64,000 bases of DNA from Nostoc sp. FACHB-152 (lineage in GTDB: Bacteria; Cyanobacteriota; Cyanobacteriia; Cyanobacteriales; Nostocaceae): the NCBI RefSeq assembly GCF_014697475.1, contig NZ_JACJRV010000003.1, positions 124,001 to 188,000 of the forward strand. The letters are read 5' to 3'. Below are positions 38,517 through 54,195 of the stretch, in pieces. The translations under genes and the position numbers were made by a program. Position 1 is the stretch's first letter; every line of letters starts with the position of its first letter. The notes below the pieces were generated by a model. It had not been told where the DNA came from. It worked only from the letters and a program-made list of their open reading frames with translations, and searched no databases.

Positions 38517-38861
38517 AATCAGTAAATAGTAATCAGTAAAAAAGCCTGAACGTTTTATATGATATGCCTTCATAAGGCGTTAATGGACTAACATATCTGA
38601 TTACAGATATAGTAATTTTATTTGATTTGTGAAAATTGAGAACCTCAAATCCCTGACTTCTTAAAAAAGTTGGGGATATAGCAATCATAAATGAATTATA
38701 AACAAATCTACTCCCTATTACCTCACTGCCTCAACCAGTACTTTAGAAATCAAATAGGATTGCCATATATTTATTGACAAAGCTGATTTGTACATCATTA
38801 GTATAGGTGTTTTGATGGCGATAAACTTCTAATCCGCGTCTTGTTAAAAATTTACAAAATA
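38517..38861. other. Intergenic region between GST and the nuclease-like gene
   Basis: About 345 bases, A+T-rich. The phrase 'ATATAGTAATTTTATTTGAT' near 38606 recurs near 58198, so it is part of a dispersed repeat. No gene or clear terminator. Confidence 0.45.
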
Positions 38862-41240
38862 TTAGTCTAACTCATCATCTTCTAAATCTTCTAAATCATC
38901 ATCTTCTAAATCCTCTAACTCATCATCTTCTAAATCTTCTAACTCATCATCTTCTAAATCCTCTAACTCATCATCTTCTAAATCTTCTAACTCATCATCT
39001 TCTAAATCCTCTAACTCATCATTTTCTAAATCTTCTAACTCATCATCTTCTAGATATAATTTTTGATTGCGTTTTTTCTCAAGATAAGAAAAGCATTTGT
39101 CACTGCAATAGTAACAGTCATCTTGAGGGCAAATCAGGCGACCACATCTTGAACAATTTTTATGTAGACCCATAACAAGAGGAGAAAATCCACATTTTCC
39201 TTTCCCCTCTACCCATCCACCGCAATAAGCTAAAATAGTCGTTAACAATTTTTCTGATTCTGACCTTTTGGCTTGTAGTAATCCTCTACCATTAAACTTA
39301 AAAATTTTAAACTCCGACAATCTTCCTTTTTCTCGATGTTGCCAAAGGATGTTTAAAGTATCAATAAAACTATCTATTATATGCAAAGGGTCATAAATTT
39401 TTAAAGGATACAATATTTTTTTATAAACTTCAGGAGTAAAATCATTACTTTTGTAAGCCAGCATAGATAAAAAATGTTTTAGCAATGCAAGAAATAGATA
39501 TGGTAGCGATAAGTAGTCTACAGGTATTTCTGTTAATACATTTATAAAACTAGCTTGCCATTTAGGAAAATCAGCAAGCCATTTCTGTGGTAACTTGCGT
39601 CTAGCAGTTATGAACAAAGGCAAAGGATTTTCATCGTCTACCAATGATATATCTTCCCAGTCAGGAATATGCTCTTCTTGCAATGCTCGAAACTTTTTTG
39701 CTATTTCAAGCTGTTGAATATAGAAATATTTATTATAATCAAATACCCAAGGTGGTAAATATCTTTTAGGATCAAAATCTCTAGACACATCAATACTAAA
39801 AAAGTTATCGCTAAAAATATTTTCTAAATTTTCTAATTTTCTTTTATTAAATTCGCCCAAAATTTTAGGAGACTCAACAGAAAAACGAGGTGTTTCTTCT
39901 CCTATCATGTATTTTATTTGAAGATAAGGAGATAAAACACCAACTATTATCACATCAAAACCGCGCTCTATTTTAAAAGCAGGAACACAAAATTCAGAAT
40001 AAAGTTCAGAGTTAACGGAATTACGAGTATTCTTGACATCAATTAAGTGTTTTGAATTTAATCGAATATCTGCTTTTCGCCAATATTGGCTTTCTTGTGT
40101 AATTTGATGAATAGAAATATCTTCTGTTGCAAAATTTAACGATTTAAAATATTTGATTACTAACTTCTCTGCACCACGAGCAGAAATCATTTGAGCTTCT
40201 TTAAATGAATCACCAGTAGGATTCCATTCTCGGATTAATTTCTTATCTGTTTTATCTAAATTATATAATTTATGCCAGCTTGAAGTGATAGCTTCACTAT
40301 AAGGATAGTCAGAATCGTTGAACTGAGAGACTAGAGCAAAAAAAACTTTATATTTATTTTTTATATACTGTTTTTGATATTCAATCGGAGCAAGATTCCA
40401 GAGGAAATCCTTATATCTTAATTTTTCTTGGAGATATTTAATTTGGCTCCAATAAATTTTACGTTCTGAACTATTAGATTCTTCTAATTTTATTAAAACT
40501 TCATTTAATAGTTCTTGTTTTAACGAAGAATCTACTATATCAAGATATTGATTGATATAACTGCTATATGATTCTAAATCATATAAGCTAAGAATATTCC
40601 TAAATTCCAAAGAAGAAACAATAATATTGGGTACTTCTTTCAAAAATGTACGCAATAATTCTTTTTTTTGATAATTATTTAAGTTATTTATTTTGTCTGT
40701 TATTAATTTAACCAACTCTTCATTTGAAAGATTATAAATATATCGATCTAAAAAAATCTTAAAAATATTGTAGTTGTTACTATTAATACATTTATTTATA
40801 ATATTAATATCAGTAGTATTATTATCTATTTTTTGTAAATTAATAGTATTTAAATCATTATATTTGTAATGTTGACGAATTCCAAAATAAACAATATCTC
40901 CTAAATTTATAACTTCATTAGATATAAAATTTATATCAGAATATCCTTCACATTTAATATATCCGCGTCCTCTTTTAACAGTATCAACAATACCAATACA
41001 AGTTTTTAACTCAACGTTAATGGCTCGTTGACGTTCTGTATCAATATCAAATTGAACATAAACTCCTTTTCCTTTACTCCCTTCTATTAGTTCTTGCAAA
41101 TATTTCGGTACATCATCTCGATGCACATAAATACCTTCTTCAGGATTATTATTTTCAATGGGAATGATAAATCCGTAGTTATTAACTTTCTGATTTTTAT
41201 TATTGATTCCACCAAACCAATCAATTTTACCTATAACCAT
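38862..41240 (-). CDS. Unknown multidomain protein: cold-shock-like domains, PD-(D/E)XK nuclease core, zinc ribbon, acidic repeat tail
   Basis: About 792 residues from ATG 41240 (open 11 codons further). Residues 3-78 and ~80-138 look like two cold-shock/OB domains ('YGFIIPIENNNPEEGIYVHR', then 'GRGYIKCEGYSDINFI...GDIVYFGIR'). A helical region (~140-340) follows. Then comes a restriction-endonuclease-like core: Glu358 in 'RGAEKLVIKYF', Asp391 in 'KADIRLN', and Asp401-x-Lys403 in 'LIDVKNTR', the E...D...(D/E)xK pattern. Eight cysteines (673-716; 'CSRCGRLICPQDDCYYCSDKC' region) suggest zinc binding. The tail is seven acidic octads of LEDLEDDE type. It stands alone and is A+T-rich with Asn/Lys/Ile codons unlike its neighbours, suggesting transfer. 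Likely nucleic-acid-targeting, possibly defensive; function unproven. Confidence 0.65.
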   Translation of the reverse strand: MVIGKIDWFGGINNKNQKVNNYGFIIPIENNNPEEGIYVHRDDVPKYLQELIEGSKGKGVYVQFDIDTERQRAINVELKTCIGIVDTVKRGRGYIKCEGYSDINFISNEVINLGDIVYFGIRQHYKYNDLNTINLQKIDNNTTDINIINKCINSNNYNIFKIFLDRYIYNLSNEELVKLITDKINNLNNYQKKELLRTFLKEVPNIIVSSLEFRNILSLYDLESYSSYINQYLDIVDSSLKQELLNEVLIKLEESNSSERKIYWSQIKYLQEKLRYKDFLWNLAPIEYQKQYIKNKYKVFFALVSQFNDSDYPYSEAITSSWHKLYNLDKTDKKLIREWNPTGDSFKEAQMISARGAEKLVIKYFKSLNFATEDISIHQITQESQYWRKADIRLNSKHLIDVKNTRNSVNSELYSEFCVPAFKIERGFDVIIVGVLSPYLQIKYMIGEETPRFSVESPKILGEFNKRKLENLENIFSDNFFSIDVSRDFDPKRYLPPWVFDYNKYFYIQQLEIAKKFRALQEEHIPDWEDISLVDDENPLPLFITARRKLPQKWLADFPKWQASFINVLTEIPVDYLSLPYLFLALLKHFLSMLAYKSNDFTPEVYKKILYPLKIYDPLHIIDSFIDTLNILWQHREKGRLSEFKIFKFNGRGLLQAKRSESEKLLTTILAYCGGWVEGKGKCGFSPLVMGLHKNCSRCGRLICPQDDCYYCSDKCFSYLEKKRNQKLYLEDDELEDLENDELEDLEDDELEDLEDDELEDLEDDELEDLEDDELEDLEDDDLEDLEDDELD
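38865..39055. repeat. 24-bp tandem repeat encoding an acidic tail
   Basis: About seven full copies of a 24-bp unit (TCATCATCTTCTAAATCTTC + TAAC), with TCT/TCC alternating at one site between copies, giving a hint of a 48-bp higher-order unit. On the coding (minus) strand it reads as LEDLEDDE octads. One copy has Asp-to-Asn (LENDE) and one has LEDDD. It is prone to copy-number change. Confidence 0.85.
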
Positions 41241-41446
41241 AATTGATAAATTGATAAAGTATTTAATTACCAAGGTTTTTTATGTTACCAAGTATAATTA
41301 TTTTCAATAATACCATTACTTAAAGCGATATCTCTAGTCTATATGGTGTAACTTAAAACACACCCCAATATTCGGCAGGTTCATTTAGTTAAAGGTTTAT
41401 ATAAATGAAATTCTTGATTGAGATTCAACAGAGCCAAGAATAAATA

Positions 41447-53951: not shown

Positions 53952-54146
53952 TTACTTTGCATAGCATCTATATATTATGAAGTATGAGCTATATACTCCA
54001 GTTAGCCAAATAGTCAATTTAATTTCTGACTCGAAAACCAATTTTTGCGACTCGAAAACCAATTTTTGCAACTCAAAAACCAATTTTTGCAACTCAAAAA
54101 CCAATTTTTGCAACTCACAAACCAACTTTTGCGACTCAAAAACCAA
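53952..54146 (-). CDS. Possible small coiled-coil peptide encoded by the 21-bp repeat
   Basis: A minus-strand frame of 64 codons reads MVFESQKLVCELQKLV..., with six heptads (FELQKLV) having hydrophobics at a/d-like positions, then a hydrophobic tail (SYFIIYRCYA). Its TAA is directly followed by the Uma2 ATG, so it could be its leader or partner. There is no clear ribosome site, and low complexity alone can create such a frame. Treat it as uncertain. Confidence 0.3.
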   Translation of the reverse strand: MVFESQKLVCELQKLVFELQKLVFELQKLVFESQKLVFESEIKLTIWLTGVYSSYFIIYRCYAK

Positions 54147-54159
54147 TTTTTGCGACTCG
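54028..54159. repeat. 21-bp tandem repeat (6 full copies plus partial)
   Basis: Unit GACTCGAAAACCAATTTTTG+C, with minor variants (AACTCA, AACTCAC), starts at 54028, 54049, 54070, 54091, 54112 and 54133 and ends in a partial copy. The period of 21 leaves both strands open. On the minus strand it reads KLVFELQ heptads, on the plus strand (C/N)SKTNF repeats. It lies in the leader of urtE. Confidence 0.9.
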
Positions 54160-54195
54160 TATCAAGACGTAATTACCGCAAATATACTGTTATTT

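Follow-up and report, generated by a model that had tools for sequence, protein, structure and literature searches.

A candidate stand-alone nuclease of Nostoc sp. FACHB-152 with cold-shock-like modules and an eight-cysteine module, and its possible role in defence

Which function could be served by a solitary, A+T-rich gene in the genome of Nostoc sp. FACHB-152? The gene was analysed within a window of 64,000 nucleotides (contig NZ_JACJRV010000003.1, forward-strand positions 124,001 to 188,000), of which a preliminary description from the letters of the sequence was available. It occupies positions 38862..41240 on the minus strand and, as that description had it, encodes 792 amino acids from an ATG, followed by a stop codon. 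A longer form starting from a TTG at 41273 is unlikely, since the near relatives begin with M-x-x-G-K, as does the ATG-started window protein. With a GC content of 28.4%, the gene lies below the 39.5% of the window, and its GC3 of 0.18 is the lowest among the 34 window genes measured, itself included, which bears out the deviant composition noticed earlier. The gene occurs once in its 8.6-Mb genome; Nostoc sp. FACHB-110 has a copy 92% identical, in the same gene order. In comparison with the nearest relative, dN is 0.036 and dS 0.093, dN reaching its peak in the helical stretch.

The window protein exhibited no match above cut-off with Pfam, no match at all with NCBIfam and no match with the PADLOC models (library of 2023; 0 families at E up to 10). 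Sequence comparison places the gene as a member of a coherent nuclease-type family that has no name in Pfam, NCBIfam or PADLOC.

Distribution and insertion of the gene

Whole-genome searches gave protein matches in 25 of the 388 genomes of the order, the genome of the window included. The profile of the core alone was present in 18 of the 388, i.e. absent from 370, and the remaining seven matching genomes comprise five with fragments (G379, G380, G117, G124 and G180), one with a different ORF (G140) and one with a low-complexity match (G049). The G049 match, which runs into the acidic tail and has a stop inside, was rejected. In a sample of the phylum, 11 of 386 genomes matched; ten of these are also in the order set, and the eleventh, from another cyanobacterial order, contains two separate copies. 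Within the genus, the protein was found in 2 of 11 genomes and is missing from nine.

Six plasmids gave matches (Synechocystis, Variovorax, Microvirga, Sinorhizobium and two Roseomonas), and five proteobacterial plasmids carry the core, which is also present in the second cyanobacterial order. One viral contig presents a match that likewise includes the core. Further viral-contig scans returned the same contig again or nothing, and phage records gave no match with the window protein or with the viral-contig protein. On the viral contig, the gene lies in antisense orientation, with a tail assembly chaperone gene on one side and a minor tail protein gene on the other; we take this site among phage tail genes as typical of cargo genes. 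In the gene tree, this copy groups with the plasmid copies of Alphaproteobacteria, joining R. gilardii with a support of 0.98.

Twenty-seven members, spanning Cyanobacteria, Proteobacteria and the viral contig, were aligned, the broken or partial copies L040, L064 and L066-L072 being excluded. No stop occurs within any of the 27 aligned stretches, and L002 and G674 very probably represent one genome. The copy on the Synechocystis sp. B12 plasmid (L040, 10043-11720) is split into three annotated ORFs and is surrounded by DUF1156, DUF3883 and toxin-antitoxin genes. In G415, the start of the second copy is overlapped by a small ORF (L063, 11323-11619), HNH-like by eye and with no match in Pfam.

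In nine related genomes of the family that were retrieved, GST-like and YggU-like genes lie 90-560 bp apart and the gene is absent, while in the window these two flanks are separated by almost 3 kb. The nine had been chosen for adjacent-looking flanks, G359 and G682, which resembled them in this respect, being left out; nine further genus members, in which the flanks lie at a large distance from each other or on separate contigs, were uninformative. The gene is an insertion in the window genome. Its composition, its patchy presence and the gene-free flanks of the nine relatives all point to the horizontal acquisition that had been suggested from its coding style.

The intergenic stretch towards the GST-like gene (38606-38770, approximately 165 bp) is an extended, imperfect inverted repeat (z -4.0), and sequences similar to parts of it occur in many copies elsewhere in the window genome and in relatives; it is probably a MITE-like element. 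Rfam gave nothing between 36000 and 44000. Elsewhere in the window (53977-54170), a seven-residue repeat, SKTNFCN, seen by eye, lengthens an ABC ATPase ORF at its upstream end; it probably stems from a tandem repeat of the intergenic region that happens to be in frame.

Nuclease-like core, cysteine module and N-terminal modules

According to the alignment, the family consists of a constant half (residues 325-728) and a variable N-terminal half. Residues 325-505 (39726..40268, minus strand) correspond to a predicted PD-(D/E)XK-type core, recognised by alignment and profile comparison. Residues E358, D374, Q379, W387, D391, D401, K403 and K423 are invariant in 27 of the 27 aligned members, and N404 is kept in 26. 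The preliminary description had named E358, D391 and D401-x-K403 for such a core, with correct numbering.

The core was compared with a profile of NOV_C/DUF3883 sequences from relatives, built on 12 of 13 NOV_C loci. A probability of 81.5, an E value of 1.1e-5 and a score of 37.0 were obtained, compared to scores of at most 20.0 for 100 column shuffles and 9.9 for the reversed template; two other modules of the window protein scored 11.4 and 12.2. In this alignment, D391 falls on gyDI and D401-x-K403 on EVK. With Mrr_cat (PF04471), the score of the core is 27.7, with a shuffle maximum of 19.2. NOV_C/DUF3883 is placed in the PD-(D/E)XK superfamily and, because its profile match exceeds the shuffled and reversed controls, the PD-(D/E)XK assignment is supported by sequence. 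The chemistry of the family is likely that of a nuclease. Pfam itself found no NOV_C/DUF3883 (PF13020) in the window protein, and this family is not among the 25 listed of the 26 Pfam families matched by 26 members. PDB sequence searches with the protein and with the core profile gave no meaningful match, and the pLDDT values of two AlphaFold2 runs, 39.1 and 44.6 (the latter with four sequences), are too low to show a fold.

The C-terminal module (residues 610-728; 39057..39413, minus strand), delimited in the alignment, presents eight cysteines, at positions 673, 683, 696, 699, 704, 709, 712 and 716, all of which are kept in 27 of 27 members. It is probably zinc-binding, in agreement with the zinc ribbon described before.

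Residues 729-792 (38865..39056, minus strand) make up the acidic tail, which is encoded by a tandem repeat with a 24-bp unit (7.8 copies, 93% matches) and contains 46 D/E and no K/R among its 64 residues. The tail therefore exists as claimed. The additional proposal that it mimics DNA and holds the enzyme inactive fared less well, and as a family feature it was rejected: among 26 aligned members, only the window protein and L002 have it, the other 24 being without a tail, and the tail of the nearest relative has another repeat pattern and 78 residues instead of 64. Since only two close relatives have a tail, with differing repeats, a role as functional inhibitor is not supported, and we read the tail as a recent, lineage-specific expansion.

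In the variable half, a first cold-shock/OB module covers residues 1-80 (41001..41240, minus strand). It was assigned from Pfam CSD matches in relatives, the window protein itself giving no match with CSD (PF00313). At E 0.1, 8 of 26 members match CSD and, at E up to 1, 7 of the 10 N-termini scanned do so. Two of these ten, L047 (1.4e-8) and L052 (9.2e-8), are above the Pfam cut-off; their best stretch corresponds to the first module, and their second CSD stretch is known only to pass E 1. The second cold-shock/OB-like module (residues 78-140; 40821..41009, minus strand) is weaker. In L051, a CSD match below cut-off (residues 83-103, E 0.0033) falls inside it, and the comparison of the two modules gave a score of 20.3, with 100 shuffles reaching at most 15.6. 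The claim of two cold-shock modules thus stands, by way of the matches in relatives, for the first one and, in a weaker form, for the second.

Many cyanobacterial members open with a cold-shock module, and the weaker second module then follows. Nine members, with five ORFs from plasmids, three from cyanobacteria and one from the viral contig, do not match the profile of the cold-shock region, and they include all six proteobacterial or viral members. The cold-shock part of G137 and of G163 has an ORF of its own, which overlaps that of the nuclease by 4 bp in the former and by 1 bp in the latter; a frameshift could explain this. The C-terminus of L061 (G058) carries an SSB domain, which matches solved SSBs at E 4.6e-12. 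In G140, which gave no match with the nuclease core profile, a 413-aa ORF (L072, 8213-9454) opens with the first cold-shock module of the family; this module may also belong to another protein family.

A unit of about 130 residues, identified by profile copies in relatives, is present once in the window protein (residues 166-300; 40341..40745, minus strand). Among ten members tested, its copy number varies from 1 to 4, with two copies in G217, G120, G322 and G155, four in G235 and three in G353, where the third reaches E 0.025. It is predicted to be helical only in a low-confidence model. Across lineages, the putative recognition half is found as OB modules with repeats, as a separate OB gene, with an added SSB or with other N-termini.

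Genomic neighbourhood and proposed function

In G072, the gene is located inside an hmaA-hmaB-hmaC operon, 20 bp from hmaB. Other copies are found near Orf5 (G322), near DarTG (a truncated copy, G379), near a type I restriction subunit (a broken copy, G124) and 5 kb from PbeC (G058). Three of five proteobacterial plasmid copies lie near Gabija, Ssp or DISARM-type genes: GajA/GajB start 134 bp downstream of the Sinorhizobium copy, the Microvirga copy is near SspH, and that of Roseomonas OT10 is near DrmA and a methylase. No defence neighbour is annotated for the copies of Variovorax and R. gilardii, of whose neighbours one was scanned. Of the control stretches, taken elsewhere on three plasmids, two contain defence-type genes (BREX; an ATPase/UvrD pair) and one has none annotated. 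HmaB is present in 112 of the 388 genomes and close to the gene only in G072, among the places listed, so the gene was not retained as an Hma effector in general; the window genome gave no HmaB match.

By eye, the cyanobacterial copies are mostly single genes amid housekeeping genes. PADLOC matches at E 1e-40 amount to roughly 9-10 of 120 genes near these copies against 5-7 of 120 in the control, both counts being estimates from family lists (for the neighbour set, 25 of 74 families listed, plus DarT). The neighbour set consists of 120 of the 162 genes that passed the size and distance rule, L066 excluded, and the control of 120 of 181. For the control, 20 regions were taken at arbitrarily picked positions in twelve of these genomes, and it was run at 1e-40 only; when relaxed to E 1e-10, the neighbour set gave matches with 157 PADLOC families, many of them generic. 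The comparison therefore gives no clear excess of defence genes near homologues. A location of homologues always in housekeeping loci, which would have spoken against defence, was found mostly so in cyanobacteria, but some copies are near clear defence genes. Defence neighbours, housekeeping surroundings and a slight excess, taken together, give a neighbourhood that fits defence without proving it.

We lean towards a stand-alone nuclease effector, most likely defending against phages or other genetic elements that enter the cell. Defence as such is rather likely, judging from context, and is made plausible by the viral-contig copy, the plasmid copies near defence genes and the copy in the Hma operon. 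Of the sensing-and-cutting defence protein first proposed, the domains are upheld as sequence predictions and defence is kept as plausible, with a neighbourhood count only slightly above control.

An RNA-directed enzyme has also to be considered, in which the cold-shock modules would hold RNA and the core would cut it, in translation-arrest defence or RNA quality control. Related small proteins (28% over 124 aa) are encoded directly upstream of the nuclease in L059 (13179-14072) and L060 (8273-9007), and their R-N-I-A-S-H (R-x4-H) motif is one that we take to be HEPN-like. Such proteins, located 9 and 23 bp upstream of the gene in G082 and G099, favour this explanation, but they have no match in Pfam and are found in one genus only. 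NOV_C/Mrr-like cores, in addition, are mostly regarded as DNA enzymes, which argues against RNA as substrate. Passages of PMC11090510 describe cold-shock domains as generally binding RNA, with single-stranded DNA as another possible ligand. On balance, we consider an RNA-directed enzyme unlikely.

A nuclease acting in host DNA repair, in natural competence or in the processing of replication forks, whose OB modules would hold single-stranded DNA, would account for the presence of these modules, for the SSB domain of L061 and for the housekeeping surroundings of most cyanobacterial copies. A core missing from 370 of the 388 genomes of the order, a protein missing from 9 of 11 in the genus, fragments in five genomes and carriage on plasmids and a viral contig do not fit such a host function, which appears quite improbable. 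A selfish nuclease, aiding its own spread or excluding competing elements with no benefit to the host, is very improbable: the plasmid and viral carriage, the single-gene insertions, the IS elements adjoining two plasmid copies and the multi-copy inverted repeat beside the window copy would suit it, but, by eye, the insertion points mostly differ between loci and no recombinase is regularly adjacent (a recombinase-like ORF is nearby in G217 and an annotated one about 8 kb away in L040).

For a defence effector, we infer the cutting activity, substrate, trigger and protection as follows. The N-terminal half, i.e. two cold-shock OB modules and a variable number of ~130-residue units, would recognise a nucleic-acid state that arises during infection; the simplest candidates are DNA or RNA in single-stranded form, or a protein attached to it. 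This recognition would free or position the NOV_C/DUF3883-like PD-(D/E)XK nuclease, joined to the eight-cysteine, probably zinc-binding module, and the freed nuclease would cut nucleic acid, stopping the invader or the infected cell. We favour the view that the N-terminal half is an exchangeable sensor. More tentatively, the proteins could constitute a new single-protein immune family. Tandem cold-shock modules, together with a variable number of repeats, would directly read the single-stranded nucleic acid of the invader and activate the NOV_C-like nuclease fused to them, which has its own zinc module; neither an ATPase nor a methylase nor a partner protein would take part, and the recognition half would be swapped between lineages. 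The single-gene architecture makes the proposed defence effector directly testable. If defensive, it would suggest that cold-shock domains can sense infection directly without an ATPase, and it would add to the little-explored immunity of filamentous cyanobacteria.

Comparison with known systems

The core is closest to NOV_C/DUF3883 (PF13020), its best profile match; both have an aspartate ahead of one strand and (D/E)-x-K on the following one. It differs from NOV_C by the added invariant Q379 and W387 and the D-V-K-N motif, by its flanking domains and by the absence of a Pfam match. The weaker likeness to Mrr_cat (PF04471) lies over the first helix, in an alignment that spans 35 columns only and does not reach D-x-K.

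According to passages of PMC11090510, the type IV CoCoNuT systems, predicted to serve in defence, bring together cold-shock OB modules, a zinc ribbon and a PD-(D/E)XK nuclease. They are multi-gene McrB/McrC GTPase operons, whereas a single protein is found here; a one-protein form is not mentioned in those passages, and reading of the window by eye gave no McrB-like GTPase ORF beside the gene. In the same way, passages of PMC12458937 report TPR-cold-shock fusion proteins of TALON/TOTE in operons with a nuclease, which differ in being multi-gene, with a YprA helicase and TBP. Membership of TOTE was rejected, Pfam TOTE S1CSD reaching only E 0.17, in 1 of 10 N-termini.

The titles and abstract openings surveyed, and passages of PMC7159879 and PMC12839542, do not describe this architecture. 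The domain combination is apparently new, and its likeness to Hma, as presented in passages of PMC8565338, lies in one member, that of G072, encoded within the Hma operon.
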